A stretch of DNA of 64,000 bases from Styela clava (taxonomy: Eukaryota > Chordata > Ascidiacea > Stolidobranchia > Styelidae), in NCBI RefSeq assembly GCF_964204865.1, contig NC_135259.1, positions 4,846,974-4,910,973 on the forward strand, written 5' to 3'. Below, in pieces: positions 3,435-59,937 of the stretch. The stretch's first letter is position 1. Every line of letters starts with the position of its first letter. Under the pieces are notes generated by a model that saw nothing but the letters and a program-made list of their open reading frames with translations, did not search any database and was not told where the DNA came from. The translations under genes were made by a program, and so were the position numbers.

Positions 3435-3769
3435 GCGGCGGTGTGGCTCAACGGGCTAAGCGTTAGGAATACGCTCGCCACCGCACTTCTAATTACTCTG
3501 CGTGGGTTCGCAGGTTCGAATCCCATGCAGGGATGGTTATGTGCGAGAGGATTGCTGGACTCCTCGCCGTCGTTGGGTGGTTCACGTAACCGCTGGTCGG
3601 TTACGGCTTCCTCCACCAACAAGTCCATGCTTCCGAGAACAAGCAATATAACTAATCCCATACCCGACTTGGAATGGTAACCGGACGAGAGGCCGTGGTT
3701 CGCCATATGGATAAGCCGTCTTATCGGCTTTCCTCTCCCCGGGATAAATATGTAAATCCTATCCTATCC
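3435..3769 (+). mobile_element. tRNA-derived SINE, full-length copy
   Basis: 335 bp. The 5' part is tRNA-like, with an A-box-like TGGCTCAACGGG and a B box GGTTCGAATCC about 65 nt downstream. A unique body follows, then ATAAATATGTAAATCCTATCC at the 3' end. Other copies are at 9516, 24133, 36571, 39459 (minus), 51797 and 59573. Its site is empty in R1 copy B at about 51.57 kb. Confidence 0.85.
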
Positions 3770-4181
3770 CTGTCTTTACGGCCCACCTGCCGTGGTTGGG
3801 GCAGCAAAATTTTACCTGCCATTGATTTTCAATTTGCTGCCGCGCTAACGGCAGCTCGTCATTGGTTTGTGGCACTGAACTGGAAATATATGGAACGATC
3901 TTCTCTCTCGTTTTGCGTTGTCTCTGCGCGGGACAATTTGATCGCCGCCATCTTGGCACTTATGCTTCCAAACTTTCTTCCTTCTGGTAGGGTAGTTCCC
4001 TGGTTTTGGCTTGTTTTTCGTGTTTAAAAGCTGCTAGTTTCATAATTGGGTATTTACGTTCAAACTTCCCTAAGTATAGGTGGCTAGGTTAGTATTTGTC
4101 ACTAGCTAGTTAGTATTTTTTTTTTATATTTTAGGCTGACAGTACGATATAGTTACGGAATAGTTTAACTAAAGGTACGGT

Positions 4182-7100
4182 ATGGCATTGCCAAAAAAAT
4201 TTGAGGCGGAGAAAATGATTGGAAAAAGTAGCGGTATTGGTACTCAGTGCTCCGCATATGGTTGCAAAAAACGTTTTAAAAGGAAGGACTTTCGAAGTGA
4301 TAGCGAGGGAGATGATGACGAGGAAAGTGTGCTGAAACGAAAATATCCAAGGACATTTCATAAGTAAGAAAAATAGCCCAGCAGTTTGTGTTAACAATAT
4401 CAGTTTTCAGTTGTCTGCCAGTGTGTGTTTTAGCAATTTGTTCATAGCCTGCTAAACATTGTAAGAGATAAAGCTAGTTTTATTATCATGATATACAGAT
4501 ATATGTTAGAGTAAATGCATACAGGTATAGCTGTCTCGGTACAGTATTGAGGCTCGTCTTCTGTAACTATAAGGTCAGAAGTCAGTTTGTAGTAAAGTTG
4601 TAATTTAGTCAAAGTTGTTGGAAAAATTGTATAAGCATTTAAATCATTTGGGCTGAAGGCGACAGCAAGTTTATAACATACAAAGTGGTCAACAATTTAG
4701 CGCATAAAACTATTATTGACTAGAAAAGAGCGTTTTTGACTATACAGATAGACTATGTTAAATCCAAATTCTGGCCTGCTTCAATTCAAGTAGCTCAAAT
4801 CCGAATAAATTGTGCACTTACTGCATGAAATGATTATCAGTTCTTTTTTGCTCATACATAATTAACAATATTTTTCTCAGATTTCCCTTGAATAAGGCAC
4901 TTTGCAAGAAGTGGGTAACTGCTTTGCGGAGGGCGAATTGTATTCCAACTAGTTCTTCACGTTTATGCTCTGACCATTTTAAAGAGAGCGATATTAAGAG
5001 AACCGGGCAACGCACAAGAATTAAGGACAATGCTGTTCCGACCCGATTCAAAGCATTTCCAAAATATTTAAGAAAGGTATGCATAAGATAAACAACAAAT
5101 TGAATCCTCAATAACTTTAAATGTCATATATCAGGCAATTAAGATCACTATAGCATGCAGATACCTAGTATTTTAGCTTATGGTAATAGACTTGATCTGT
5201 TATGTATTTTAATTTTTAGTTTATCGGAATAACTATATAAAATCATCTGTTTATGTGATGTGTGAGATTTTTTTTACGACAAATGCCTTCTAAATTTTCA
5301 AAATTCTCGTTTTTTGCCACATGCTTCGGTTCAACGCATCTAAAGTGGGACATGCTCATGATCATCAAAATTTCTTGCAGGTCAACGAACAGCGAAAGTC
5401 ACCGACAAAAAGAAAATTTCATTCATGTGTAAAGCAGAAGTGGTCAGTGCAGGAGAAATTTAACAATGTGCTCCATGACCACTCATATTCACAGGTCATT
5501 GCTTCACCTACAAAGTTAAAAAAATTAAATCTCAGCTTACAACATTTAAAAGCAGTAAGAAAACGACTCCGGCTTTGTCAAAAAAAAACATATCGATTGC
5601 AAAAACATGTAAAATCTCTTGAAACGGTGCTAAAGTCCCTGAGAAAGAAAAACTTGGTGAGTGCTTCATGTGAAGAAAGTCTACAGCGATCTATACCTTC
5701 ATCAATCTTCAATAGAATTTTAATGAATTTACAAACTGGAAAAGGCGTCAAATATCCCAAGGAGCTAAAAACTTTTGCTATGACTTTACAGTTCTATTCA
5801 AATAAAGCGTATCAATATGTGCGGAAAGTCTTAAATCTGGCTTTACCACATCCAAGCGTAATAAGAAAATGGTACCAGAAACTTCCAGCTGAGCCTGGTT
5901 TCACAAAAATTGCATTTGATGCGATCCGGCTGAAGGTGAGTGCTGCATCGCACCCATTGATTTGTGCTATGATGATTGATGAAATGGCAATTAGGAAACA
6001 TGTTGCTTGGGATGGAGAAAGGTATCGGGGCTTTGTTGACCTGGGAAATGCTGAAAATCAGGATGATTCTGCCCCACTTGCCAAGGAAGCTCTTGTTTTG
6101 ATGGCTGTTTGTGTGAATGGGTCCTGGAAAGTACCTTTGGGATATTTTCTCATTAATGGATTGACCGGAGAAGAAAGAGCAAACATCATAAAGATTGGGA
6201 TTCAAAGATTGAGTGAAACTGGAGCCAAGGTGGTATCCTTAACTTGTGACGGGCCATCTTGTCATTTTTCAATGCTCTCTCATTTAGGAGTTGTTGCCTC
6301 GCATGTAAGCATGCATTCATATTTTACTCATCCTTCGTGCCCATCTGAGCGGATTTATGTTTTCATGGACGTTTGTCACATGCTTAAATTAGTCCGAAAC
6401 ACCCTTGCAGAGTGGGGTGTTTTGCGTGATGGCAATGGGAACAAAATTTTGTGGGAATATTTTGTGCAGTTGCAAAAACTCCAATCAACTGAAGGTCTTA
6501 GGCTTGCAAACAAGTTGAAGCAAAGACATATACACTGGTATCAACAAAAGATGAAAGTTGATATTGCTGCTCAAACCCTGAGCAGCAGTGTTGCAGATGC
6601 GATCGAATACTCTGATACGGTGCTGAAATTCAAGCAGTTTAGTGGAAGTCAAGCAACTGTAAAATTCATCAGAATTTTTGACCAGCTTTTTGATGTGCTA
6701 AATTCCAGAAATCCCTTCGCTAAACGATTTAAGGAGCCACTAAGACCTTCAAATAAGCATATTTGGGAACCATTCATGAATCAGGCATGTGCATACATTG
6801 CACAGTTGAAGGATTCTTCAGGAAGACCAATTTTGATGTCAAGAAGAAAAACTGGCTTTATTGGCTTTTTGTTATCTGTATCCAGTGCAAAAGGCGTGTT
6901 CAATGACTTGGTCACTTCAAAATATTTAAAATATCTTTTAATGTACAAATTTAGTCAAGATCATTTGGAACTCTTTTTCTGTGCTGTAAGAGGTGCTGGG
7001 GGATTCAATAATAATCCAACTGTGCAACAATTTACTTCTGCCTATAAACGACTGCTTATGAGAAGTGGGGTAAAAGGCACAGGAGGGAACTGTGAGCCCC

Positions 7101-7762
7101 AGGATGCAACAAGCATTTTGAATGTTTTGGACAGCTTCAGTCTGACTAATCATAATATGAGTTTAAGCTCAGTATCTTTTATGAAGAAATATGACCTTGA
7201 ACCACGGACTCCACTAACTTCTGACCATGACTATGCTGACATACCTAACACAATCAGGTTGTCAGAATACAAGCTTCAAATAATCAAATATATTGCAGGA
7301 TTTGTTGCAAAGAGGCTGCGAGATACCATGTTTTGCATAAAATGCAAGGAGGCTCTCGTATCATCTACTGATCATACTTCAAGTTTAATATATTTTAAAA
7401 ACCGTGGAGGATTAACAGTTCCGTCAGCAAGTGTTATAAAAGTTTGTAGAGAAACTGAAAAATGTTTTCAAAGAATATTAGCTACCTCTGGAGGTAGACT
7501 GCCCCAATCCACTGGGCTCATCAATGCTATCGTTATTGCAGTGCAAGATGGTTCAATCGATAAGCCTATTTTTCCCGACCTTGTAAACCACTGGCGCGAT
7601 ACAGGGTTTGGTGATTGCCATATTAGTTTGATGGTGAAGGCCATTATTAAAGCATATTGTGGCATAAGGGCCAAACATATGGCACGAGAGTTTAATGACC
7701 AAGCTTCTGCAGTTAATATAAGAAAAAAATTGTCAAAGTTAATTATATTTCAGCACCAGTGA
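4182..7762 (+). CDS. THAP-domain P-element-type transposase (THAP9-like)
   Basis: Three exons, 4182-4363, 4881-5076 and 5381-7762, join in frame to 919 aa, close to the size of vertebrate THAP9. The N-terminal THAP zinc finger spans exons 1-2: C23, C28, W72, C90, H93 and the AVPT motif at 112-115. A basic, probably coiled region follows. The RNase H-like transposase core has candidate acidic residues D326 (IDEMAIRK), D416 (TCDG) and E656 in SQDHLELFF, followed by the conserved GGFNNNPT. The C-terminal domain contains IIKYIAGFVAKR and a CIKC pair. The protein should bind its own transposon ends and cut and paste DNA in the nucleus. No stop or frameshift is visible. A 3' splice site lies at 4133-4134, 47 nt upstream of the ATG. 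It sits within the inverted repeats at 3873 and 9241, so it is mobile rather than a domesticated host gene. Confidence 0.88.
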
Positions 7763-8330
7763 GGAAAATTTTTCGTCATTTTCTCAACAGGTCATGCTTT
7801 GGCAATGAATAATTTTAAAATAAAGTTATTAAACAAGGTCAATCATTGTCTATTTGTATCACATTTTTCATCCTGGCATGGCCAAAATTACGTAATGTGG
7901 GTGATAATTTGGAATGCTATCAACGGAAATCTAAAATAAATTTTAAGTTTAAAATTTGTTTTGAGAAGTATTTCCAGTCTTTTCTGAACAAGTACTGATT
8001 CATACCTTTCATCTCGTACGTTTTCATTTGTGCGATATAAAATGAAACGCTTTTTTTGCCACTACTGTTTTCAATTTTGTCCTATTTGTGTCATTACTCT
8101 TGTTTCACGATTATTTGTTACAATAAATTAACATGCTTTATTATAGGTATAATGTAAAATGTGAACCGCCAACCTTATTCATGTGGGGGAGATGTTTACT
8201 TAGTGTGTGTTATTATTTGTTTGGTTTGTTGGCTAATGACTGGATGTTAAATAAACTTCGCTATCTACCCAAGTTTTCTGATTCTTATTATATTACAGAG
8301 GTGTGGCCAAAACTGAATAGGCTATACAGA
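7763..8330. other. 3' non-coding part of the P-like transposon
   Basis: AT-rich sequence after the transposase stop, with an AATAAA-containing AATTTTAAAATAAAG about 50 nt downstream that may serve for polyadenylation. No second gene recognised. Confidence 0.5.
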
Positions 8331-8728
8331 ATACCGTATTTGCTCGTTTAATAGCCCGGGCGCTTAGTTTTTTAAACAAACTCACTAACCGGGCCCTTAT
8401 TCAAACCGGCGCTTATTCAAGCAGGGGCGCTTGTTATTTTTAAAGTAAAATTATACACAAAAATTACGGTACCGGTATCTTTGAAGACAAATATTTGACG
8501 ACATTAATCCTTTTTCCATGTCAAACGCAAATTATTCACGTCTTAAGAGTAATTCCCTCATATTACGCTTCTTATTTCCTATTGCTCTCTACCACTGAAA
8601 AATCAGCTTTCACACCGGGCGGGTATTCAAGCACCGGCCCGTATTTATTTTTATGTCCTGTTCACACGGGCGGCTATTCAAACGGGCGCTTAATCAGGAC
8701 CGGGCGGTTAAACGAGCATATACGGTAT
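8331..8728. mobile_element. MITE-like palindromic insert inside the P-like transposon
   Basis: Ends are inverted repeats: ATACCGTATTTGCTCGTTTA at the left and AAACGAGCATATACGGTAT at the right. The interior reiterates GGGCGCTTATTCAA-like motifs in both orientations. No coding potential. Probably a separate insertion, or a structured subterminal region of the P-like element. Confidence 0.55.
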
Positions 8729-9515
8729 GTTATGAAAAGTTTTTTTGAACATTGGAAATCGAATATATTCTAAATTGGAAACAACTTCATTTGGAAAATT
8801 ACAATAATCAATGTCTTAGCTCCGATAACATTTTAATTAGCAAAAAATGGTATTAAGGCGCACAAAATATGAAGCCGGGCTAGGTAAACTATGGCCAAAT
8901 ACAAGAAAATGGGTTGGCGATTCCGGTAAGCCACTCGGAGCAATGTAGCCTACTGTGTGATTGGTTAGGCAATATTATTCATCCACGAAAAATGCAAAAT
9001 GAAAAATTAGCACGGTATGGCGAGCTTGGATGTATTAGCGTTTCATACCTAATAAGAAACGAATCAAGATCAAGCGAATATACAAAAAAAATCGACGCAA
9101 ATAATTGGTATCTGTCAAATCCCATATGAAATACATTACGCGCTACGCAAAATTTGGAAGTCTAACGTCAAAACGAGAGAGGCTTCAAATGGTCCCGCGA
9201 AAACGAGAGAGAAGCACACTCTATATTTATATATCTCTGTGGTTTGTGGAGGCTAAAAGGTCAGTTGCCATAAGTTTGGCCGTAGCGGCCATGTTATGGA
9301 AATAACGCCATGGTTTTGCGGCAGCTGCAGACGCCACAGAATACTTAAACTGCACTGGCAATTTTGGTCAATATTCTGATACTGGTCCAATTAACTCTCG
9401 AGTAATACATGTAGGCCTATCTCAGTTATTCATTGGCAGATTGGTGTTTGATAGTCAGATAGCTGGATAGTATCTTCTGATCTTCAATAGATAATAGAAT
9501 AGAACTTTTCCTTCC

Positions 9516-9785
9516 GCGTGGGTTCGCAGGTTCGAATCCCATGCAGGGATGGTTATGTGCGAGAGGATTGCTGGACTCCTCGCCGTCGTTGGGTGGTTCA
9601 CGTAACCGCTGGTCGGTTACGGCTTCCTCCACCACCATGCTTCGAAAACAAACAATAAACTAATCCTATACCGGACTTGGAATGGTACCGTAACCGGACG
9701 AGAGGCCGTGGTTCGCCATATGGTATATGGATAAGCCGTCTTATCGGCTTTCTTCTCCCCGGGGATAAATATGTAAATCCTATCC
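9516..9785 (+). mobile_element. SINE, 5'-truncated copy
   Basis: Matches the SINE at 3435 from just before the B box (GGTTCGAATCC) to the ATGTAAATCCTATCC tail. The A-box half is missing. Confidence 0.85.
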
Positions 9786-10095
9786 AAATGTCAGAACAGA
9801 CAGGGAAAGTATAGATGAATTTATTGTTACTGTGTTATGAAAACTGCAATCACAGAATCAACAGATTTTAATTTTATGATTTGCTGTGGCAGATTTTTTC
9901 TTCAAATATTTAAATCTTATTTATTGTAATGAATTAGGCTAGAGTTGATAAATCAAAGTACGGTACTGTTGTTATATCGTTATATCATGTGCATAAGTAT
10001 AAAAAATCAATGATATTTTTCCTTTTCAAGGTTTTTCTTTAAAATAGTTAAATATTATTACCGAAATAAATGATTGATTGATTGATTATTAAAAA
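9786..10095. other. Region upstream of the paracaspase gene
   Basis: AT-rich and non-coding. It contains a (TGAT)n run at 10067-10086 just before the ATG at 10096, resembling a non-LTR tail. No clear TATA box or strong splice acceptor. A weak AATGCAG lies at the start codon itself. Confidence 0.4.
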
Positions 10096-12162
10096 ATGCA
10101 GGCACAACCATGCGAATGCATTTTAAATTTGAAACTTTCCAGACTTCGATCTGCATTTACTTCCATTTGTGATTTATTGGACCAACAAGGTTGGAATATA
10201 TTATCGGAACATCTCAAATCATTAAACGTGTTGGATGCAAGAGATATGAGTGCAATACATCATGCTTCTTCATTAGCAGTTGCCAGCCCAACAAAAGAAC
10301 TTTTATTGCGATTGGAACAGAAAAGTAATATCGATTTCTCGGTGCATGCTTTATTATTTTACATGAATTCTTTACAAATGCCTCAATATTTTCAAATTTA
10401 TATGATGATTGCTCCTTTACATAAGAAAAATTGTAGAATTTCATTTGAAAATGAAAGAAAAAAGATTCTGGATGAATTGTTTTCAGAAGATCATGCATCG
10501 ACTATGATGCAACAATCACCAAACGCTGGTTATCCTATGGTTCATGAATCTCCATTGACCAATTTTACTTTTAACAATCTACAAACTTTTCCTGTATTAT
10601 CTTCAGGAGTTTCACATGCAATCCCAAATACAATGTTCCCACCAACATTAAATCTAACAAACGAAAAAGGGATTCAAATGCCTTTTTCGTCGCAGGCATA
10701 CAAACAACCTGGCTTACAAATGAATAGTATTAATAATCTTTCTCATCCAAATAAGCCTTACCTTTGTATTGTCGAGCACCCTAAAGAACAAAGATTAAAT
10801 TGTGGAGAAGGTTTAATTTTAAGGTGCGTAGCTGAAAGTGATCAAGCCAATGTACATTATTCCTGGCAACGGGATGGTATTAAATTACCTGATCAAACTA
10901 ACAAAGTTCTTATGATATTAGATGCGCAACCATCGGATGATGGAATCTACGTTTGTACTGTTACATGTGATAACTCACTCAGTGCTGTTTCAAATGCAGC
11001 AAAAGTAGAAATTGTGAAAGAATTGGGATGTTCTATAAATAAAGATGTACACTCTGATTATGATAATGTTTCTATGACTGCAACTGCCAAATTTGCTTTG
11101 TTAATTGCCAACGAAGATTATGTCCATAACACGACATTAGCTTCTGCAACGAATGACGTAGCAGCGTTGGCCTCGACGTTAAGAAAAAAACTTCAATTTA
11201 AAACAGTATCACTCGTCAACCTTAACCTATCTGAGATGGAACGAGCTGTTAAGGTGTTTTGTAGTTATTTAATAAATGGATCATATTGTGTTTTATATCT
11301 GGCTGGACACGGCTTCGAAAATGATGGACAATGTTATATTGTCCCAACAGATGCTCCAAAAGATTACACCTATGAGAATTGTTTTTCTGTCAAAAAGATG
11401 ATTCAAGATATAAGTTTGCATGATCTTCATTTGACAGTTGTGTTATTGGACGTCTGTAGGCGACGCAATGAACGTGCGGTCAAACTCCCTGAGCCAACTC
11501 ATAATAAATTTAAATCGTGCAATTTTGTTATCAGTTTTGCAACTATGGAAAGTGGAATGGCATACGAGGTGAAAGGTCGTAAATTAGGAGCATATGTTTC
11601 TAATCTTCAGAATCATTTGAGCAAGGACAAACGCATTACTAGAGTTTTGGAACTTGTTCATCAAGACATGCATAAATGTGAATTAACCAGAGGAGTTCAA
11701 CAGCCAGAATTCAAATCCAATATGTTTGAAGACAGAAAATTAACCGACCCATTGAAATCTCCTTTCAATGCAGAAAAGCAGAATATACATGACTATGAAT
11801 GGAATGAAGTACATGTTGGTCAGAAGCCAATATTATTTTTTTTCGAATCTTGTGGGGTATATGTAAAACTTAATGTAACATGTCTATTCTCAAATATCCT
11901 CCTAATTGAAGCAATTGTCATTGATAAAGGTGGTACGAGCATTTGTAATGTATCAATCAATCTCACTTCTGATTCGCAATCTCAGAATGGGAGCAGTACA
12001 TCCTGTATTAGACTGGAAGATTTACAAAGACTTAATACTCACATGAAAATTTTACCCATCTCTATTAATATAAGCTATGTTATTAATGAATTCATATTTG
12101 AAGAAAGTTGGGATGATAATATTGATATTCCTTTTATAACCTGGTGGATGCCTGACGAATAG
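10096..12162 (+). CDS. malt1: MALT1-type paracaspase
   Basis: 688 aa in one uninterrupted exon. The order is a death-domain-like helical region (about 10-110), a linker of about 100 aa, one Ig domain (about 222-307; C244, W257, C287 in DDGIYVC), the caspase-like protease domain (about 330-545) and a C-terminal Ig-like domain. The catalytic dyad is visible: H405 in YLAGHGFEN and C454 in LLDVCRRRN. They are 49 residues apart, as in human MALT1. MALT1 proteases cleave after arginine and act with BCL10 and CARD-coiled-coil proteins in NF-kB signalling in the cytosol. Vertebrate MALT1 has two Ig domains before the protease; only one is clear here. The absence of introns is notable. A retrocopy cannot be excluded, though the frame is intact. 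The start was chosen because the death-domain region begins soon after it. Confidence 0.9.
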   Translation: MQAQPCECILNLKLSRLRSAFTSICDLLDQQGWNILSEHLKSLNVLDARDMSAIHHASSLAVASPTKELLLRLEQKSNIDFSVHALLFYMNSLQMPQYFQIYMMIAPLHKKNCRISFENERKKILDELFSEDHASTMMQQSPNAGYPMVHESPLTNFTFNNLQTFPVLSSGVSHAIPNTMFPPTLNLTNEKGIQMPFSSQAYKQPGLQMNSINNLSHPNKPYLCIVEHPKEQRLNCGEGLILRCVAESDQANVHYSWQRDGIKLPDQTNKVLMILDAQPSDDGIYVCTVTCDNSLSAVSNAAKVEIVKELGCSINKDVHSDYDNVSMTATAKFALLIANEDYVHNTTLASATNDVAALASTLRKKLQFKTVSLVNLNLSEMERAVKVFCSYLINGSYCVLYLAGHGFENDGQCYIVPTDAPKDYTYENCFSVKKMIQDISLHDLHLTVVLLDVCRRRNERAVKLPEPTHNKFKSCNFVISFATMESGMAYEVKGRKLGAYVSNLQNHLSKDKRITRVLELVHQDMHKCELTRGVQQPEFKSNMFEDRKLTDPLKSPFNAEKQNIHDYEWNEVHVGQKPILFFFESCGVYVKLNVTCLFSNILLIEAIVIDKGGTSICNVSINLTSDSQSQNGSSTSCIRLEDLQRLNTHMKILPISINISYVINEFIFEESWDDNIDIPFITWWMPDE

Positions 12163-24132: not shown

Positions 24133-24469
24133 GCGGCGGTGTGGCTCAACGGGCTAAGCGTTAGGAATACGCTCGCCACCGCACCTCTAACTACTCTGCG
24201 TGGGTTCGCAGGTTCGAATCCCATGCAGGGACGGTTATGTGCGAGAGGATTGCTGGACTCCTCGCCGTCGTTGGGTGGTTCACGTAACCGCTGGTCGGTT
24301 ACGGCTTCCTCCACCACCAAGTCCATGCTTCCGAAAACAAACAATACAGTAAAACTAATCCCATACCCGACTTGGAATGGTAACCGGACGAGAGGCCGTG
24401 GTTCGCCATATGGATAAGCCGTCTTATCGGCTTTCCTCTCCCCCGGGATAAATATGTAAATCCTATCCT
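24133..24469 (+). mobile_element. tRNA-derived SINE, full-length copy
   Basis: 337 bp, nearly identical to the SINE at 3435 from the A-box-like TGGCTCAACGGG to the TAAATCCTATCC tail. The high similarity suggests recent activity of the family. Confidence 0.88.
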
Positions 24470-24587
24470 AATTCATTACAATTTGGCTTGTTTTCTGGAA
24501 TCAATATGCGAATACTTGAGTGGGATTTTTCATATGGTATTTAATATGATAACATGAGGAAAATTTTGAGAAAATCAAGTATTTTAA

Positions 24588-27339: not shown

Positions 27340-30269
27340 CAGTGGCGGCGCAAGGTCATTTTGACAACCGGGGCAAGCTACTGCGGGCAAGTCACTCCCA
27401 TCTACGGGGACAGGATGAGCGCTGTAGGTTCTCCCATCATTTTATGAGTATAAAAACCATTCCATCGGTAACAACCAATCGGCAAAAGCGACAATTTTTA
27501 ACGATAAGAAAGTGTCTTTAAAACCGGTCCAAGTCAAGGGATTAATAAATATAGACATAGTTTATTTTGAAACCTCTTTCAAAAGGAAAGGCAATATTTA
27601 CCCAGATAAATACAATGACATATTAACAGAAACTTCGGGAAAGCAGACAAAACCTAAAATAAGGTTTAAAACGTTACTATGAAGAAAGGAAAGTTAATGC
27701 AAAGATAAGGACATGCGTCGCTCACTCATAGATATATATGCTGCTAGACTTCTACTGCTTGAACATATATGCAACACGCCGCGGTTTCTTGGAAGCAAAA
27801 TGCTCAATAACGCGCTGATTAAAGTCATGCATCCCAGAAATAACGTCTCTGTGAATGGATAAAACAGCCAAGGAATTTAATCTATCTTGCTTCATTGTGT
27901 TTCTGAGATACGTTTTAATACGCTTCAGCGTGCTGAATGTTCGCTCTGCGTCGGCGGAAGAAATAGGCGTCGTCAAAATGATGTCCAGAAATTTTGCAGA
28001 TGCCGCAAAGGTAGTTACTAGAGTGTTATATATGGGGAACCCATAGAGCGCGCAAGTTGATGTGATGTTCAAAAAAGTTTGATTGGTGTATATACATTGC
28101 AATTCATTTTCCAATTTACCCACGTTTATCATGGGATAAAATTTGGAGACAGTAGCCAACAAATGGATGGGAAATTGACGTGCAAATTTTGAAAAAATTT
28201 TGTGGTTCATCAAAGAGAACGCGGCAAGGTGTTCAGTGCGCAGACGATCGCCTATTTGATTCACCAGAATGTCACAGCATTCCTTTGCAGACAAAATCAA
28301 ACGCTGCGTTGTTTGCCCGCGGCGTAAAGAAGCACTCCATGTGTCGTCGTATTTTATTGTTTCCCGGATACGAGATACAGCATCGCAGAAGTCTGAAATA
28401 CACGACTGCACAGACGCTCCATCCATTAGCCTTGACTGCAATGCGCCGTATAATACATCCACGTGATAGAATATTGTGGAGAAAAAAGCGAGAAAAAATG
28501 AAAACTCACCATCTTCTAGCAGACGCTTTAGACCTGCCGCCTCCCTCACAGAACGTTCGTCCCAAACCGGAGAGCTCTGAATGCCATTGAAACACTCAAT
28601 GAGCTCAGACCTAAACGCCGTGCACCGCGCGTGATTGGAAGTTCCAACGTGTTGGTGCACAAGCTGGGAGACGGCGGCTACATATCTGGCGAAGGAGGTC
28701 AGAGCGCTTCGGCGAAACGGAAAAAAATGAAGAAAACCCCGAAACATTTGCAAAAAATATACGGACGAGAGGGGTATCAAGACTCATATTTTTAATAACG
28801 AGGTTAAATTGGTGTGCATAACAACGTAAAAAAGTTTGTCATAAGTTTGAGCTATCAATTTTGACCTCGCGTTGTAAGGCTGTAACACTTCTTTCAGTAC
28901 AGCTGATATCCCGCAAGCCGTGCGATCAACGATTGGTACAAAGCTGTGAAATCTCTCGGTAGGTTTACCATCTTTCACAAACCGAAAAATCACAGCCAGT
29001 TGGGAAACGCACGTGATGTCAGTTGTCTCGTCAGACTGAATCGAAAGGAACTGGCAATTCTCAATTTCCAGAGCCAAATGTTGTAAATAAATTTTATACA
29101 TTGAGTCGAGCAAATCATTTTGTATATCCTTAGATGTCCCTTTCGAAACAGTTGCGGCATCAAGATGATCTCTCAATACTGTATCTAGGGATGCGGTGTA
29201 TTCCACCATATCCAAAAATACCCTTCTATTAGAAGAGCCAGCCTGTTCATCGTGCCCACGGAGGGACAGCTCGTGACAACCAATGAACTTCAAAACATCT
29301 ATCAATCGACCGAGAATATGGTTGGTTGTGCCGACGAATAGAAACCGCGCGTCCTTCATCCAACTGTGCTGCAATATTAACATTTCCGAATGTTCCGTAT
29401 TTTACTGCATTGTCCAGATGCTCCATAGAAGATTGATGATCCCTGGCACGCTCGGAAAGATGTTTAAGATCTCTAAAACCAAATTTACACCAACGTGAGT
29501 CACGGGCGGTAGCAAAAAGTAGGCAATAAAAATAAAAAAAGTGCATTTTTGTCCTCGCTTTAACACAACCATTCGTGTTTTTTATACCAAGTTTCTGCGC
29601 AGAATGTACGCCGACGCTTTCCTCCGTCATGGGATTGTTCCAGTGAACAATTTTTTGGTTGATAAGGCCCAAGACGTTGTACCTCTAATTTTTGTTCCAG
29701 CGGCAGCTGCGAAAACGGAGTGCGAAGTAGTGCATCAACCCCATTCATTATGAAGTCTAAGGCTAAGAAATGCGAAGCCGGAAAGAAGTGAGGAGCTCAA
29801 AAGGAATGTGGAAAATCGAAAGCAAATGGACTAAAGGTCTCTAACTGATTCAAATAGCGAAACAAGCGACAAAAACGAAGGCGAGGAAACTATCAACTCT
29901 TCAAGCAACCAACGAACGAGAAGGAATGCGTGAATATGTCAACACGTTGTTGTAAGAGACGTCGGCATTGTGTCGTCATAGTTTCGGGGCTAGCCCCGAT
30001 GATTTAGTAAAAGAAACAGAAAACAAACGCGGCGAGTGGAAGATAAAAGAGAGAATACGATATACAATGAGCAACCGGGGCAAAATCGGCGTCGCCCCGT
30101 CGACGTTCGGCGAAGGCTTTGCGAGCGAAAAATGAACCATGTCGGGAGAATATGGCTAGTGTAGACAGTCTGTGCAAGCGATATTGAGGTATTTTTCGAA
30201 TATTTTTTATTATACCGAAAAAACAACCGGGGCATTGCCCCGGTTGGCCCTATTGACGCGCCGCCACTG
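27340..30269 (-). mobile_element. hAT transposon with 8-bp target duplication
   Basis: 2930 bp. It has 12-bp perfect terminal inverted repeats CAGTGGCGGCGC, and a subterminal CAACCGGGGCAA is repeated inside both ends. TAACCAGG is duplicated exactly at 27332-27339 and 30270-30277. It encodes a broken transposase on the minus strand. The length and complete ends indicate a formerly autonomous copy. Confidence 0.93.
27752..29672 (-). pseudogene. hAT transposase (ZMYM1/DUF4371-like), disrupted
   Basis: Three overlapping frames make up one former protein. At 29672-29250 lies an N-terminal zinc-finger-like region ending in SRWCKFGFRDLKHL. At 29383-28784 is the central part, with LSIQSDETTDITCVSQLAV and a truncated LIAQTYD. 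At 28780-27752 is the C-terminal part, with the hAT dimerisation block ISSADAERTFSTLKRIK. Near 28800-28850 the conserved CYAHQFNLVIKNM lies in a different frame from the upstream segment, and about 30 expected residues after LIAQTYD are missing. The copy is therefore inactive through deletion and frameshift. Termini and target duplication are intact, so it could still be mobilised in trans. Confidence 0.85.
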
Positions 30270-36300: not shown

Positions 36301-39300
36301 TCAAAATGTTCCTCTCTTTGCATCACTCAAAACACCCCACACATCAAAGATAAAATTTTCAGGAAATCCAAATTCTCCAAGTTGAGATTCCAATGAAGCA
36401 ACAAATTGATCGGGATTCGAACATGTCTTCCCAGCCTCGTATATTGTACTTGCTGTTGTGAAATAAGAAAAAAAAATTGATGTTCATTGGACACGAAATG
36501 GATACACAGATTGTTTTGTCATTGAAAAAAAAAAGACATCTCTGTTATTAATGAACCAATTGATTTAAGGTTGGTGGTGTGGCGCATTGTTCTAAGTGTT
36601 AGGAATTCACTCACCACCAGTGTTCCCTCTAAGGTGTGCGCGTGTGCACGCGCACACAGCTTTCAGAGGCTGCGCACATGCATAGATTTACTGCGCACAG
36701 ACCTATTTCGATGTAATGTAACAATGTTCTCGGTTGGCAGGTTGAGAAAGTTTGTTGTTGGCCCACTCATTACCTGGTTTGAACGCCAAAATTTCTTCAT
36801 CGATTTTCGCACAAATATTAGTCATTTCCAAAAAAGTGCGCACACACCAAAATTTCTGCGCACACTTACTACAAAAAATTAGAGGGAACATTGCTCACCA
36901 CTGCACCTCTGATCCCCCTATGTGGGTTTACAGGTTCGAATTCCATAAGTGGATAGTCACCGTATGTGCGAGAAGATTGCTGGACTATCGACGCCGCAGG
37001 GTTGCTCACGTAACTGCTGGTAATTTACAGTTCCCTCCACCATCGAGTGGCTGGCTAACTAATCTCATAGTCGACATGGACTAGTAACCGGAGGAGAGGC
37101 CGTGGTTTGCCATATGATTAAGCTGTCTTATCAGCTTCCATCTCCCCTGAGATAAATATGTTAATCCTATCCAATTCTCAATACTTGAACATGGATAAAA
37201 TCACTATAAAGCTATTAATTTCATTTTTGTTTCTTAATTTTCTTTAATCCCATGGAAGTATATTTTATCATTCATGGGCGCACTTCATATGATATTCGGT
37301 ACAGTTCTTTTATTATTACATATATCATTCGGTAGATTTCAATAACACTAACTAGAATTTTGCAGACATTGTAGTGATCATAGTTACTAACTTGCTCCCT
37401 TGTTCAACAACCATATCAAAGTGTGGCTCAGCTCACATTGTAAATATAAACAGGGTAAATTAATTTATCAGACATTACTAACGAGTCTATTGTTATTGGC
37501 TTACCAAGCTCTGTATCTCTTATCCCCATAAAACTTTCCAAGCAATCATCAATCTTTCCAACAGCTTTATCTTCTGATTCTGTTGGCTGTATAGATGATA
37601 TGAATTTGATTAATATTAGCACATTGATTGTACGTGACAAAATAGAATATTTCCAAAATATACTGTTTTATTTGAGTATGTTGTTAAACATTTCTACACA
37701 CAAGTTACTGTTTGATCATGTCTGATGGAGACCAATGTCAATAGTCACAAATTTGTGAGAAGGTAGGCAAATGAAATACAGTGATACCACAATACTCAAA
37801 GAACAGTTCGGTAGTAAACTAAAAATTCTAGTCAAAAATGCTGCGGTACTCAAACAGGAATTCAGTACTCGAGCACGCCGCCGAGGGAGATGACATTACC
37901 CAAACCATACATCTCGACTTCTTCTTGACTATTCAATAAGAGAACGATTCTAAAATATATGGACGTGAAGGCCAAAACGAAGTAGTATGTAATCTGTCAG
38001 TGGACTACTGGTACGCCAATTTTCACAATTAATGCGAAAGCGGAACTGCCACAAGGTGTGCAATTTTTTATGACATCATCGCACACAAAAACGAATCCCA
38101 TAGAGCCCACAGAAATTTGCTCAACGTACAGTAACTAACACAATATTTTTTATATTTTGATCTTCATTATGTACACATTCAAATATTTATTTTTGTTTAA
38201 AGACACGCTATGTAAATATTTTGGAATGTGTAAGAACGGATAAAAATAATTACAATTGTTTCTTATGGGAAAAAGGGTTTCGGTACTCGAACGAATCGAT
38301 AGTCAATTCTCAATGATTTATGTTTGACTACCGAGGTATCACTGTAATATAATTTTCAGTACTGAATTGCTGTTTTTTTAAGATATGTCCCAATAACGTA
38401 CATGAATATCATGATGTTTGTTCGAATAACAAACTAGATGATTATTCAAATGAGAGATTCTGACGACAAGTCTGCTCTGTTTTTTTGGAGGAATATATAT
38501 ACTTACAATTGCTTGCACAGTAGCTGGTCCTTTTGATCTTAATCTGAGAGTAGCTTTTCCTGTTCCTACGTTATTGCTATTTGCTGTTGACTGAGGTGCT
38601 TTTCGTTGAGCTATCATGTCTGGAACAGAAAACAAATTTACACTCAAATAAATTGCCAAGGTGTAATAAGTAGATAAAAAAGTTGAAGTTGAAATAGTAA
38701 AAGGCTATGAGAAAAAAAGGTAGGCAATACAGTGATCAAAGAGTGATATTTTTTGGCAGTTTATTGTTTATGTCAGGCAGTATTACATCCTGAATCCTGT
38801 TGTTTGTAGGATAGTAATCAGAAAATGACACAGGATAGGATGTCCCAAAACACGGAATAACAAACCATAAAATTGGAAGTCAGTATACTGGCATATAAAA
38901 GAGTTCTAAACACCTAACGCATGTTCAGTACAGTTTTTACAAAAATTGACCAATCAGATAGGAGAACGAGTTTCGAACCAATACTGACGTGGACATAAAA
39001 GAAAGATCATCGGATTTTGAAAATATTTTTCTCATAAAGTTCGTCATCCCGCAATAGAATCCTAAAGAGTGAAATTTGTAGATTTTTCTGCAAAATAAAC
39101 CTATTTAGAACATTCCAAATCAAAATTGCACTCAAAGAATGGAATACCAAAACACATACCAAATGCTTTTCTTGGTTCAACAAGAGTCATTGTCAATGTT
39201 GCACCAAGTGGAATATCTTTTAATGCTTTAGCAACTTCAAAATGCCGACAACCGATCAAAGATTTATCATCGATCGCTTCAATATGATCTCCAACACATA

Positions 39301-42300
39301 ATGTCCTACAGGAGTCAGCAATGGTTTCTTCCTAGATAGAAAAATAAATTCAATGAAAGCAAAAAATGTGGTAATAATGGCCAACTCAAGTCTTCGAAAA
39401 CAAAACGACTCGACTCAAACTTTACACTCAAGAGATACGAGAACAAAAAAATCACAGAATAGGATTTACATATTTATCCAGAGGGAGAGAAAAACCGATA
39501 AGATGGCCATATGGCGAACCACGGCCTCTTGTTCGGTTACCGGTCCATGTCGAATATGGGATTAGTTAGTTATTTGTTTTCGGAAGCATGGACTTGATGG
39601 TGGAGGAAGCCGTAACCAGCCAGCGGTTACATGATCCACCCTAGTGCGGCGAGGAATCCAGCAATCCAGCAATCCAATCAACACTGAAATTAAGTTTGGT
39701 TCAAAAATGTATATGACATATTTGATGGCTCAGAATTGAATGTAATAGAAGGGGAAAAAATAATCATCTATTAGCCTTCGTTTTCAAACTTGCTTGAGAT
39801 ATGCAGAAATGACCCTGTACTACACGTCTACACCTGTATTACAAGTTACAACCCCTTATAAAACAATACAATACAGTAACAAGTAAGAACAATGTTGGTT
39901 CTAGAAGTAGGGATTGAGAAAGAGACTTCAAATATGCAATACCAGTCGAATAAAAAAATATTAAACTCCTGAAGAATATTATTGAAAAATTTTCATAATC
40001 AAATTTTTTGAAAAATATGATGTCAAATAAAAAACATTACTAGGAATACAGAAATACTCGTACCATGAATTCACATTCTAATTTATTTTATTGCTGTCAC
40101 AAATCACAATTATGAATGAATTTTCAACCTAAGAGACAAAATGTTCAAAATAACTACCCGCATATGACATAATCATTCCAAAATATGAAAATATTGATTA
40201 ATATACCATAACTCTAAAAATAAAAATTTCTAGTAAAATTGATTTTAAACAGAAGGTGTTCACTTATTCACTTGTATACCATGGATGTACTGTATAATAG
40301 ATAATCACAAGATGTTTTTCAAGAACATTTCATTTAAATCAATTCTGGTGAAAATTTTTTGAATGTGGCCTCATACATAGGCCTACTTGTATACTAACAT
40401 TCGTCCTAATCTGTAGGACTACCTATTATGGCAAGTCCGAGTGTAAAAATCTGATGATTGATTCAAAGAATACTAATGTGTATATGTCATAGATACTCAG
40501 CCCCTGGCACCGCCCAAAAACTCGCGAATGTAAATTTGAACAACGAAATTAACAATATATGACATACATAACACTGAATATGTAGTATAATAGCATGGGC
40601 AAATGATAAAGTGGTTTATAGTATGGCCCTTGCTCGTTATGAGACTGATTTATCTGAAAAAAAAATTCTAGCTTAAACAAACACTGTGAGTAAATATCAT
40701 GTCAGGAAAACGGTTTCGAAATAGTTGTCCAAATCGGAAATATATAAAACTCAAGTATTTGATGATATAGGTTAGTTATTACATGATAAATAATGGATAT
40801 AGATAGGAAAAGTCCAATACTCATACTTATAGTGCAGAATTACAATTATTAAAAATAACCATTCCATGCATAATTATGACTCCTATGAGTAAAAATTGCA
40901 TAATTATGAATGAAAATTCATGCAAGCTTGATTTTTAAAAAATTTCGAATATTTAGAAATAAATTTTCAGTAAAAATTTTAAGACAATTCAATTTTATTG
41001 AAGACTACATAAATTAAGAAACTAATGATAGTGAATCGTGAACATCCAAAGCATGTATGAGTTAATAAAAATATGCCTTCTTCACATGATTGAAATTACT
41101 TTGCTTTTTATTAAGGAAAAGTGCCATTCTTTCAAATGAAATTGACATCAAACCATAAGTCTACAAATTACAATGCACAATAAATATACAAAATTTATAT
41201 AACAAATAGACATCCTCAAATACTTTATGTAACTTTTGAACGTAATTATAAAAATAAGTAGAAATTTCGTCATAATTATATTCCATACAACAAACAAAAG
41301 GATTGGCTGAATGATATTCAGTACAATCAATCATTCATGTAATGTCAACCAGAATATGGCGGTGACTTCACACAGGTGTGCACTGATTACATAATTAATT
41401 TTGTGAAAACTGTTTTCAGAATTTATTTTACAGTGAATCAAACATAATCATACATGGTAGTAGCTTTTTTGAAGTGTTTTAGATTTGGATATGAAAATTA
41501 ATCTGTATTGAGTGTTGAAAAATTATAATTTATATATTTATATTCTAAAAGAGTAATGGAATCTAATGTACTGTATATCTTCACATAATTATAAGCTGGG
41601 TTAGAACTTCGAAAAAGTTGCCAAATTAGGGGGTCTGCTTATATGCGCCTATCTCTGATTGCACTAAAAATTAGGCTTATACGTGCATAATTCTGATTGC
41701 ACTGAATTTCATTAGGTCTCTTCTGCAACCATTTGCTGTGATAGGAGAGTGTGGCGTAATACGATTTGTAGAGTCGGCTTATATAGAAATTTTTTAGAAA
41801 TCCAGCATTTTAGGGCTTATAATATGCGAGAATATACAGTAACTTTTGTATAATGTCATGGTATAAATTACTGAAACCTTTGGGTACAATTATATACAAA
41901 AATAATTTCAAGTGTTATTAAATCCATTTTCGTGGAAGTAATTAATATATTTATGGATTTTGTTTTTTCAGGTCACTCTAGTTATTTATTTATAGTCAAC
42001 TTACCAGTGACAATGGTTGGATATCCTACCTATACTATGTTTTACAATGCGAATAAATTAATGGAAGGAAAAATCAACAGTTTAAAGTGGCATTTACCTT
42101 TATTCTTTTAATAAAAGCATAACCAGCACCATTATCAGTGATTGTTAATCCAAGTGAAGCTTCAGATTTGGTTAGTTGAACTGATTTCTTTTGACCTGAA
42201 TTGAAAAAATAATTATTTATTGCCTGGTGACGAAGCTATATAATAAAGCCATAGCTGTTCTCATGTAAGAGACTAGAATAAATATTTGAGAAGCAATAAA

Positions 42301-46758: not shown

Positions 46759-48351
46759 TTACCCAAAATATTTAGGCTTAATATCAATGAAAGTAAAATT
46801 CCATACATTAGGCATTCCTTCATGATAGGAAGAATTTTGTGGCCATTTATATGGCGGAATATCACTCAATCCACCAACCGTCGGCCCATTTATTGCATGA
46901 GTAGTAAAGGACTTGGCCAAAAAGTAATCGGTTGCTTTTGAATCAGTGCACCCCATATAATTTGAATCATTGCGACAACATATAGCATTGCAAGCATCAC
47001 CTTCTGAATATTTATCAAATTTATAGTTGTTGTAACGGAGAATTTTTTTCATACTTTCCATATCAACAACAGTGCCTTGATCACGTCGAAATATTTTTGC
47101 TCTCGGAGCTAAGTCATGTGACAAATCAGGATCGTTTTTGGTAACAGCCGGATACCCACTCATATTGTAGATAGATTCATAAAAGGGTACGTTATAGGAG
47201 GCCCAGTATCCCTCCCTTAAGATATTTGTTTGGTCATGAGATTCAACAAATCCTGGTATTTGTTCCACAACATACAACGCACCATCTTCGAAACCAATTT
47301 CAGGCGTGAATTTTTTCAAGTCAACCACCATGTATTGATTATTGTAAGTGCCAGAATTGTGAAATTTGATGATTTCGCCCCAATCATACCCATTGCTAGC
47401 TAGAAGATTTGCTGCACGAACACGATGCCAAGCTAAAAGGGATTTAGGAGTTACAAGATCATACAAGCTAGTATTGTATATATTGTTTGTAGTTTGTAAT
47501 ATAACCATTTCACTTCCCAATATATAGAAATCATCCCATGACTGGAGAAAACCAGGATAGCTAGAAAATGACATTTTTGAATTTTTATGTTCCTTACCGA
47601 AAACTTGAAAATCATAGTTCTTATAAATACGAAGCATTGCGCTGTAAACAAACCAGGTGCTATGTCCCATATACATGTTTTCAAATCCTGGAGTAACTTT
47701 AATAAGAACAGAACAATGACCATGTTTCTGGTTATATTGGCGAAGTTGTTTTTTTGACATTCTTTTAAAATGATTTAGCGATGGTCTATGGAAGACGTTA
47801 AATAAATCTAACATGTCTCCTGCTCCGTTCAACAAATGCATTTGGCACATGCTCATACTATTATTGGCTGTCAGAGTATATCCAGCCAGAAGTCCCTCCA
47901 ATTGACTTTGCATGTACCCAACGGCTTCCCATCTAATATCACCTTTCCCAGAAATCACATTCTCCTTTAACCATTTTTCTTGCTTGGCAAAAAAATCACA
48001 AGAACGATTGTATATATCAGCAGGTCTGTTATCAAACAAAAAACCTTTCAAATTCTCATAATTTTGATATATACGCTTTGATGTAAGAGCTCCTTCTAAC
48101 ATTCCAGCGGCATACATAATTTGATCAGGAGAGTATTTCATGTTATGCGTCGTTGCAGTGATGTCGAGGATGCCCCATCCTTTTTCTGCAATCTCATCAT
48201 TATATTGTCCATAAGCCAATGCTTCTTTCACAATTTCTCTCTTGTATATAAACACTCCATCAGAAAGAACAATACTTCCCTCCTCAGCCAAGCATATAGA
48301 TTTTAGACTTGTTGATATTATTATAAAAAAAATTATTTTGAAGACTTGCAT
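46759..48351 (-). CDS. Phospholipase B-like protein (PLBD family)
   Basis: 530 aa in one exon. A signal peptide is visible (about 1-22, hydrophobic FKIIFFIIISTSLKSICLA). The phospholipase B-like domain fills the rest. The probable Ntn-hydrolase nucleophile is Cys213, in GHCSVLIKVTPG, where family members undergo autoproteolysis to expose it. Other conserved segments are GHSTWFVYSAMLRIYK and SSYPGFLQSWDDFYI. Several N-glycosylation sequons fit secretion or lysosomal targeting. The length is close to PLBD1 (about 550 aa). I cannot firmly separate PLBD1 from PLBD2. Family members act as lysosomal or secreted amidases or phospholipases, with the physiological substrate uncertain. A strong 3' splice site (TTACTTGTTCACAG) ends at 48368, 17 nt before the ATG. 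Confidence 0.93.
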   Translation of the reverse strand: MQVFKIIFFIIISTSLKSICLAEEGSIVLSDGVFIYKREIVKEALAYGQYNDEIAEKGWGILDITATTHNMKYSPDQIMYAAGMLEGALTSKRIYQNYENLKGFLFDNRPADIYNRSCDFFAKQEKWLKENVISGKGDIRWEAVGYMQSQLEGLLAGYTLTANNSMSMCQMHLLNGAGDMLDLFNVFHRPSLNHFKRMSKKQLRQYNQKHGHCSVLIKVTPGFENMYMGHSTWFVYSAMLRIYKNYDFQVFGKEHKNSKMSFSSYPGFLQSWDDFYILGSEMVILQTTNNIYNTSLYDLVTPKSLLAWHRVRAANLLASNGYDWGEIIKFHNSGTYNNQYMVVDLKKFTPEIGFEDGALYVVEQIPGFVESHDQTNILREGYWASYNVPFYESIYNMSGYPAVTKNDPDLSHDLAPRAKIFRRDQGTVVDMESMKKILRYNNYKFDKYSEGDACNAICCRNDSNYMGCTDSKATDYFLAKSFTTHAINGPTVGGLSDIPPYKWPQNSSYHEGMPNVWNFTFIDIKPKYFG

Positions 48352-49385
48352 TCTGAAAGATCATGTCCTGTGAACAAGTAAACACAAATTACTGAATTAT
48401 ATGAAATGTAATGATAAGTTGTTTTAACGAAACAATGATAAATATATGTTAATGAACCTAAAAATCTGTATGTATTTATATACCGATAATAATGTTTTTA
48501 AACAATTCCCAAGACACTATATTCTGATATTAGGCTATTATATTTTTCTTTTTCAATGGCTCCACAAAGTGGATTATTATTTTCTAACATCTTCAAAGGT
48601 GAATGAAAGCCCGAATATTAACTCAAATTGTCATGTCTGCATGTGCCAAAAAATGATCGAAGAAAGTCCGAGAGGCGAAACATTTGGAACGAATCGGCCG
48701 TACAGTTTTAGAGTAAAAAAATGTTTCCTATGTTCAGTTACTACAATTAAATACATTTCAAATAATGGCAGAAAGAAAATTTTTAAAGTTTTAATTGAAA
48801 AATTCAGATAAGAGTTTCATGGGTAGAAAAAAAACAAAATTCCACCAAATCAGCCAATATTAAAACTATTGAAAAACTTTTAAAATCAAATGCAAAACCT
48901 AACAGCAGGAGCATTATACCATGATTGTAGCAGGTTACAAGCACATGGTATGCCACTTCTGCAATATTCTGATATTCCATACCTGACTGAACCAAAACAA
49001 TATTGTTGTTTAAGCTAGTATCAATACGGTACCGGTACTGTAACAACTACAGAACTAGGAAACTCCTATTCCTCTCCACCAGTGTTCAAGTTTATAGAAA
49101 CGTTAACTACTTCTTTAACGTACTACTTCGGTACTTCTTTTATTAATACCTTCCCACCTAAAATATGTAAAACCTTACTTGAGGTTTCGTTTGCTTTCCC
49201 GATTCTATATTCAGTTTCATTTATTTTGTTTTCATCAATTATCTTATCGTCTATTGCTGATTATGGAGTTGAAATAAACTTATATCTAATAACTATTGGA
49301 TTTTCAGTGGATCTTGCACCATATAAACTTACACAGTTATGTGGAGTATACTCTCATACCATTTACAAACTGTCTAGTAGAATCT
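48352..49385. other. Intergenic DNA
   Basis: No gene recognised. At 48659-48690 GAAGAAAGTCC...GGCGAAAC weakly resembles the hammerhead-like core at 14 kb. The segment 49095-49290 recurs at 53435-53640 (shared CGCTTTCCCGATTCTATA), so it is a dispersed repeat. Confidence 0.4.
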
Positions 49386-51309: not shown

Positions 51310-51795
51310 TTACCCAAAATTAGAGGCGCAGTTCTTACCACTTCATGGCAGCTCCTGCCACGAACGAACCGCGGCAGCTCTTGCCATGGTTTTATAGCGC
51401 TATTCAGTAATCAGTATTAACGGTATATTCACAAATTAATGTACCAGATTTTAATTGATCATGTGGAATTATATCTACTTAAACCCTAACCCTAACCCCA
51501 AATCAATCAAAACTGTATCCATAAGAAAAACGTTCCAACTTACCCAATATTTGTCACCATAATAGACAGCCCTGTCTTTACGGCCCACCTGCCGCGGTTA
51601 CGGCAGCAAAATTTTACCTGTCATTGGTTTTCAATTTTCTGCCGCGGTAACGGCAGCTCGACATTGGTTTGTGGCAGCTAAACAGTCAGTTGCTATGAGT
51701 TTGGCCGTAGCGGCCATTGTATGGAAAAACCGCCATGGTTTTGCGGCAGCTGCAGATGCCACAGAATACTTAAAACTGCACCTGCAAAATTATGA
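51310..51795. repeat. R1 repeat, copy B (uninterrupted)
   Basis: Aligns with all four pieces of R1 copy A at 2750-9365. It carries the single, unduplicated GGTTTGTGGCAGC site where the P-like transposon sits in copy A. It is also empty for the SINE and the retroposon tail. Confidence 0.8.
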
Positions 51796-59572: not shown

Positions 59573-59937
59573 CACGGCGGTGCGGCTCATCGTGCTAAGC
59601 GTTAAGAATACGCTCGCCACCGCACCTCCGAATACCCGGCAGCCCGGTGTGGGTTCGAATCCCATGCGGGGTGGTTATGTGCCAGAGGATAGCTGGACTC
59701 CTCGCCTCCGTAGGGTGGTTCACGTAACCGCTGGTGGTCGGTTACGGCTTCCTTCCTCCACCATCAAGTCCTGAAGTCCATGCTTCCGACTGTCCGAAAA
59801 CAAATTACTAACTAATCCCATATCCTACCGGTACCGGACATGGAATGGTAACCGGACGAGAGGCCGTGGTTCGCCATATGGTTATGTCGTCTTATCGTCT
59901 TTCCTGTCCCCCCGGGATAAATATGTAAATCTTATCC
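59573..59937 (+). mobile_element. tRNA-derived SINE, diverged full-length copy
   Basis: Matches the SINE at 3435 along its length, with several small insertions (for example in CGCTGGTGGTCGGTTACGG) and a TAAATCTTATCC tail. More diverged than the copies at 3435 and 24133. Confidence 0.88.

Follow-up and report, generated by a model that had tools for sequence, protein, structure and literature searches.

A recently inserted P-superfamily transposon with unequally built ends in Styela clava

A segment of 5,369 bp in a 64,000-nucleotide stretch of DNA from Styela clava (the window) almost certainly represents a cut-and-paste transposon family of the P superfamily, in the form of a complete copy that was inserted recently. 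Clean insertion scars together with near-identical copies in the same genome identify it as a genuine, recently mobile relative of the fly P element. The family is a further representative of the already known P superfamily. The two ends of the element differ in their layout, which is similar to the situation in the fly P element. The coordinates of all features are listed in Table 1.

Boundaries, target site and copies in the genome

A preliminary description of the element, made from the window, had proposed an 8-bp target duplication, and GTTTGTGG was found at both flanks. An empty site at about 51.67 kb had also been claimed. The flanking repeat was indeed found uninterrupted at approximately 51.3–51.8 kb, where it holds a single GTTTGTGG at position 51667. 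The identity of the flanks to this repeat is 92.5% over 107 bp on the left and 88.6% over 123 bp on the right side. The empty site is paralogous, not allelic.

The inverted arms have a length of 42 nt and match at 30 of 42 positions (71%). Block A (CTTCTCTCTCGTTTT) with a length of 15 bp occupies positions 28–42 from both termini, which is the offset described previously for such a block. A further block, B, is common to both ends, and its left and right copies match at 14 of 15 positions, a value reached by none of 1,000 shuffles. Block B is located at distances that fit the internal THAP sites of the P superfamily and, by this position, is a putative THAP site.

Table 1. Features of the P-superfamily element and its target site in the window
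Feature	Position	Strand	Remarks
Left target-site duplication GTTTGTGG	3865..3872		8 bp, exact
P-superfamily transposon, almost certainly complete	3873..9241	+	Supported by its inverted ends and target duplication, the empty site and ten further long copies
Left (5′) inverted arm	3873..3914	+	Block A at 3900–3914
Block B left CGCGGGACAATTTGA	3927..3941	+	Inferred THAP site
Predicted transposase exon 1	4182..4363	+	Encodes THAP domain together with exon 2
Predicted transposase exon 2	4881..5076	+	Encodes THAP domain together with exon 1
Predicted transposase exon 3	5381..7762	+	HTH, RNase H halves, GTP-binding domain, THAP9_C
Codon of catalytic D326	5978..5980	+	Drosophila D230; 6p5a alignment
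Codon of catalytic D416	6248..6250	+	Drosophila D303; 6p5a alignment
Codon of catalytic E656	6968..6970	+	Drosophila E531; 6p5a alignment
Second partial block A copy (CTCTCTCGTTTT)	9170..9181	-	Right end only
Block B right CGCGGGACCATTTGA	9185..9199	-	Inferred THAP site
Right (3′) inverted arm	9200..9241	-	Block A at 9200–9214
Right target-site duplication GTTTGTGG	9242..9249		8 bp, exact
Lone GTTTGTGG (empty site)	51667..51674		In uninterrupted paralogous repeat

The search of the genome for other copies resulted in ten further long copies, giving a total number of 11 with the window element, and in short copies. These findings support the earlier claim of a complete P-type transposon with an intact transposase frame and recent mobility, which a lack of other copies with these ends would have refuted. 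The pairwise divergence among the long copies ranges between 0.71 and 1.60%. Perfect 8-bp duplications could be identified in 10 of the 11, corresponding to nine independent insertions; the only long copy without one is L030, which is also without a right terminus. Since the ten copies combine these ends with perfect duplications of differing flanks, the flanking duplication is beyond chance.

The short, non-autonomous copies have only the ends in common with the long ones. Of the 20 distinct short copies with two ends, 15 have a perfect 8-bp duplication. The duplication is not perfect in the other five, and in one of these (L058) there is none at all.

The predicted transposase

The preliminary description had stated that the transposase gene splices in frame to 919 aa without stops. 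This frame was reproduced from the three predicted exons with no internal stop, and GT/AG borders were present at both predicted introns. The Pfam analysis of the protein revealed THAP, Tnp_P_element, TNP-like RNaseH_N, GTP-binding, RNaseH_C and THAP9_C domains, all above the curated cut-offs. The THAP domain is N-terminal (E 2.3e-15) and has the motifs C-X4-C-X61-C-X2-H and AVPTRF. An HTH and an RNase H fold split by the GTP-binding domain were identified as PF12017, PF21787, PF21788 and PF21789, in that order.

The protein matches the solved Drosophila P transposase (PDB 6p5a) with an E value of 7.9e-22, and 112 of 452 aligned residues (about 25%) are identical. In this alignment the catalytic residues (3 of 3) and the GTP-contact residues (8 of 8) are conserved, which confirms the D, D, E assignment that was formerly inferred from motif similarity. 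MALT1-like and phospholipase B-like genes were also detected, which is in agreement with an animal source.

By analogy to the Drosophila enzyme, the spliced transposase would bind the element ends via its THAP and HTH domains, pair both ends and cut with D326, D416 and E656, with GTP as cofactor. The ends would be joined into the target DNA with an 8-bp stagger, and short copies would be moved in trans.

Spacing of the inner blocks at the two ends

In the window family, the distance from the terminus to the start of block B is 55 bp on the 5′ side and 43 bp on the 3′ side. The distance between block A and the right terminus varies in the short copies (26, 28 or 29), yet a constant difference of 12 in A–B spacing between the ends was found in 27 of the 28 complete copies.

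In a second P family of the same genome the inner block was found at 42 (5′) and 53 (3′), and the far end is thus the 3′ end. For the gene-bearing copy of this family (L072) no duplication was found and the outer ends are missing; its left end is overrun by an abundant repeat, ending at query position 77. The heptamer TGCGCAT as terminus of this copy was ruled out by sister copies. Measurements in a third family (P3) covered three right ends; a left end was neither found in L073 nor recognised near P3 genes in the genome search.

The THAP sites of the Drosophila P element have been described at positions 53–63 of the 5′ end and 41–51 of the 3′ end (PMC3688188), whereas elsewhere the values given are 9 bp for the 5′ and 21 bp for the 3′ end (PMC7776569), and the two sources disagree on the polarity of the ends. 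The comparison with Drosophila made here uses just the two distances (approximately 41 and 53 bp), not their polarity. The polarity of the Drosophila P sequence agrees with the far site at the 5′ end (53–63) and the near site at the 3′ end (41–51). In a review, the unequal spacing of the transposase sites of this element was likened to the 12/23 signals of V(D)J recombination.

These distances may reflect a 12/23-like end rule of the P superfamily, a reading in which our confidence stays slightly below even: a putative THAP site lies about 41–43 bp in at one end and about 52–55 bp in at the other, one helical turn apart, like paired V(D)J signals. In the window element, block B as the putative THAP site is located about one helical turn deeper at the 5′ end, which would make the ends non-equivalent partners. 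Because the far end can switch between families, being the 5′ end in the window family and the 3′ end in the second, selection would keep the asymmetry itself and not the polarity.

The unequal spacing might also be a functionless accident of ancestry, in which ends drift and the two families and Drosophila agree by chance; we place the probability of such an accident just short of one half. The agreement extends over three lineages, each with the inner block 41–43 bp from one end and 52–55 bp from the other, which argues against chance, as does the difference of 12 kept by the short copies despite the varying right-terminus distance. On the other hand, copies within one family have common ancestry, a match between the sequence of block B and the Drosophila site is not established, and the far end is not the same one in the two families. 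The left ends that were not found for the third family point in the same direction, and so does the depiction of a zebrafish element, in which the subterminal repeats are placed 400 bp from the ends.

Activity and relation to known P systems

Judged by the gene model of the window element, the full frame is kept in 2 of the 11 long copies (the window element and L021). Most of the family is dead, since nine long copies are without the full frame under this model. Private codon changes in the long copies are near neutral (28 synonymous versus 95 non-synonymous, at approximately 590 and 2,170 sites). Both observations would fit a recently mobile P transposon that is now dead, with the window frame open by chance and no copy making active transposase. 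We consider this state quite possible, though below even probability, as the window element and L021 are both full length, their frames show a pN/pS of 0.35 (based on only 16 changes), and the catalytic and GTP residues are intact.

That the locus is a domesticated THAP9-like host gene merely resembling a transposon is extremely improbable: the protein has a THAP9_C domain and human THAP9 has been described as a stationary gene, but the terminal inverted repeats, the 8-bp duplications, the ten long copies elsewhere and the short copies with the same ends speak against it, and it is refuted by multiple insertions with different duplications.

The window element is similar to the Drosophila melanogaster P element in domain order, the catalytic D, D, E, the eight GTP-contact residues, the 8-bp duplication and the distances of its putative inner sites from the termini (approximately 41 and 53 bp in Drosophila P). 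It differs in length (5.4 kb compared to 2.9 kb), in its imperfect arms, which in Drosophila P are perfect 31-bp repeats, in the sequence of block B, which is unmatched to the Drosophila site, and in the transposase, with the identity given above.

Complete copies outside flies were called uncommon in the preliminary description; one such element, Pdre2 of zebrafish, has already been published and is likewise complete and has 8-bp duplications. Pdre2/zfTHAP9 is like the window element in that its P-type transposase has a THAP domain, its ends are inverted, its duplications comprise 8 bp and internally deleted copies occur; it is set apart by terminal repeats of 13 bp and by subterminal repeats of 12 bp at a distance from them, which are depicted with spacers of 400 bp. 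By their published description, the P subfamilies of Anopheles gambiae are also similar, with autonomous elements of 4178–7545 bp and 27–31-bp inverted repeats, and P elements and P-MITEs of this species share with the window family perfect 8-bp duplications and short copies with only the ends in common (PMC1562414). The P transposons reported from Ciona intestinalis (Kimbacher 2009) are likewise P-type elements in a non-insect animal.

The window family adds a well-bounded P family of low divergence with open frames, for which short non-autonomous copies and an empty site as control are also available. With two families in one genome that have about the same one-turn offset in opposite polarity, the unequal site spacing of Drosophila P is now testable across families, and the end asymmetry of one helical turn may be a general P rule.

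Boundaries and coding capacity of the element

The window element is a genuine P transposon, complete and mobile in the recent past. The 8-bp target duplication proposed in the preliminary description was found as GTTTGTGG on both sides of the element, and the 15-bp block said to lie at matching offsets (CTTCTCTCTCGTTTT, block A) is located at positions 28–42 from each terminus. The inverted arms are identical at 30 of 42 positions. The undisturbed target was likewise recovered: the host repeat is continuous at approximately 51.3–51.8 kb and contains a single GTTTGTGG at 51667. Its match to this empty site, which is a paralogous one, extends to 3874 on the left flank and begins at 9240 on the right flank. 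The element boundaries are thus fixed to about 2 bases without using the inverted repeats. The flanking repeat is broken next to the transposon by a dispersed SINE-like repeat, which the paralogous copy (51.57 kb) lacks.

The three predicted exons yield a protein of 919 aa with zero internal stops, consistent with the intact frame claimed previously. The Pfam domain order is THAP, Tnp_P_element HTH, TNP-like RNaseH_N, GTP-binding domain, RNaseH_C and THAP9_C, and all six matches exceed their curated cut-offs. A PDB sequence search matched the solved Drosophila P transposase structure 6p5a (E 7.9e-22; 112 of 452 aligned residues identical) and the THAP domains of THAP1 and THAP2. The alignment with 6p5a also bears out the catalytic residues assigned earlier, with D230, D303 and E531 corresponding to D326, D416 and E656 of the window protein. 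In this alignment all eight GTP-contact residues that PMC7776569 lists for the Drosophila enzyme are identical.

Features of the transposon and its surroundings in the window
Feature	Position	Strand	Remarks
Target duplication GTTTGTGG	3865–3872, 9242–9249
Inverted arms	3873–3914, 9200–9241
GCCGCCATCTTGGCA	3944–3958		Near 5′ end; presumably YY1-motif-like
Palindromic block	8331–8728		3′ noncoding part of element; 29-nt arms, 90% complementary, 340 nt between
SINE-like repeat	3435–3766, 9513–9785, 24133–24470, 36893–37175, 39456–39667, 59575–59937		tRNA-type box B by eye
MALT1 paracaspase-like gene	10093–12162		689-aa open frame; domains Peptidase_C14 (caspase-like) and Ig; MALT1_Ig under cut-off
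hAT-type transposase, apparently broken	27752–29401	minus	Two neighbouring open frames, judged by eye
Phospholipase B-like gene	46759–48360	minus	Single open frame; Phospholip_B, E 2.5e-162

Long and short copies in the genome

The window was placed on contig C13 of the 376.6-Mb genome searched. For the first 300 bp of the element, at least 10 other full-length matches (98–99%) and at least 29 additional matches, mostly just to the first 108 bp, were found among the 40 of 113 candidates scored. The last 300 bp gave at least 8 other full matches (97–99%) and partial matches to two long copies and at least 29 other places (40 of 164 candidates scored). Further copies with these ends, which the preliminary description had suggested looking for, therefore occur genome-wide and include ten other long ones (L021–L030), which were compared together with one old fragment (L031).

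Of the 11 long copies, window included, 10 retain the two ends and are flanked by a perfect 8-bp duplication; L030 is without the right terminus. Since L022 and L027 have identical duplications and flanks and count as one, nine independent long insertions result. Pairwise divergence ranges between 0.71 and 1.60% (median 1.06%). Under the window's gene model the full-length frame was found in two of the 11 (window and L021). Eight of the nine other long copies show frameshifts or bigger losses in the frame; in L030 exon 3 is open, but exon 1 has two one-base indels. Copy-private codon variants were 28 synonymous versus 95 non-synonymous, per roughly 590 and 2170 sites, which is close to neutral. 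The pattern reads as a recent burst, after which most copies decayed. A 52-bp stretch of intron 2, present wholly or partly in the other ten long copies, is absent only from the window copy. A 355-bp deletion (8291–8645) that takes out much of the palindromic block is common to L025 and L029 at separate sites, as if the deleted form itself had moved.

The analysis also covered 49 loci at which a left or a right end occurs, one place being represented twice. Both ends in the expected layout were found in 21 rows, equal to 20 distinct places, with the ends 734–1806 bp apart; the remaining 28 loci have a single end or an ambiguous layout. These short copies resemble the Anopheles P-MITEs described in PMC1562414. 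A perfect 8-bp duplication flanks 15 of the 20 distinct copies, and 18 of the 21 rows agree at 7 or 8 positions (L058 at one). Six short copies (L016, L038, L042, L047, L049 and L063) have the duplication AAAATAGC and two have ATTTGAAC, so the 15 perfect duplications reduce to nine distinct ones. The AAAATAGC copies seem to represent one insertion spread through duplication of the DNA around it.

Fragments of equal score also occur in series. Six right-end fragments on C19, equal in identity as well (5494583, 5593690, 5691760, 5866087, 5960113, 6052971), lie 93–99 kb apart with one gap of 174 kb, as if a ~95-kb unit were in tandem repetition. Six left-end fragments on C2 (25091415–26044592), 129–260 kb apart, are possibly another set of large duplications.

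Unequal spacing of the inner blocks

A second, inner motif (block B) starts at 55 on the left (CGCGGGACAATTTGA) and at 43 on the right (CGCGGGACCATTTGA). Between the two 80-bp subterminal stretches it matches at 14 of 15 positions, which 0 of 1000 dinucleotide shuffles reached; the best shuffled match was 13 (five times). All four blocks are present in 10 of 11 long copies, always at 28/55 and 28/43, and in 18 of 20 distinct short copies, one block being lost in each of L014 and L047. The A–B spacing difference is 12 bp in 17 of these 18 and 13 bp in L053; right block A lies at 26, 28 or 29, the A–B spacing nonetheless being maintained. At the GGGAC/GGGAT position both ends have the same base in 16 of the 18 (exceptions L034 and L057). 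As the copies have common ancestry, this spacing reflects conservation and not independent origin. Judged by their position, the blocks are candidate THAP sites; no sequence match to the Drosophila THAP site was established for the inner blocks.

A genome protein search, in which 57 of 110 candidates were scored, gave at least 63 matches, among them other P lineages at 24% to 70% identity. Starting from the gene-bearing copy L072 on C19 (49% identity), a search with its right end gave at least 39 matches, and 18 short end pieces were compared. The terminus of this second family (P2) begins CATTGAGGTGTATATAACTAGAG. Five of six pairs of ends have both termini, three of them with perfect 8-bp duplications (C17, C2, C18); the duplications mismatch at C10, where the left terminus is damaged, and at C6, and C9 is without a left terminus. 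On the left, the inner block TTTTGTGCCGAATTGAAGG starts 42 bp from the terminus in 5 of 6 ends, C9 being the one that could not be measured; on the right, the distance is 53 bp in 8 of 9 ends, and C6 is without the block. GGCCATCTTGG follows this block too, as it follows block B near the 5′ end of the window element. A third, related P type has the inner block at 52 in 3 of 3 right ends. The gene-bearing copies L072 and C1:18072049 indicate that P2 has its near end on the 5′ side and its far end on the 3′ side, opposite to the window family (far end 5′, near end 3′). When the distinct duplications of the two families (21) are pooled, the bases seen most often are G (13) at position 1, T (15) at position 2, A (13) at position 7 and C (11) at position 8, which amounts to a palindromic tendency.

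In Drosophila P the THAP sites occupy 53–63 and 41–51 of the two ends, as given in PMC3688188; the review PMC7776569 places them 9 and 21 bp beyond the 31-bp repeat and names the ends the opposite way. Near and far distances differ by 12 bp in both the window family and Drosophila, compared to 11 bp in P2. The window family, P2 and Drosophila P therefore show the same two inner-block distances recurring in three lineages. No non-Drosophila P family with unequal inner-site spacing was found in titles and abstracts, which is weak evidence of absence, most subscription papers lying outside this search.

Directly observed in the window family are complete ends, 8-bp duplications, an open frame, multiple recent copies and a conserved active site. 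By analogy with the solved Drosophila system, the ends would be bound by THAP and HTH, GTP would assist end pairing and cleavage, and integration would proceed with an 8-bp stagger. For Drosophila, PMC7776569 suggests that flexible THAP and dimerisation domains allow unequally spaced ends to pair, and the unequally spaced ends of the window family may pair likewise. It is the end asymmetry, compared across families, that merits specialist attention.
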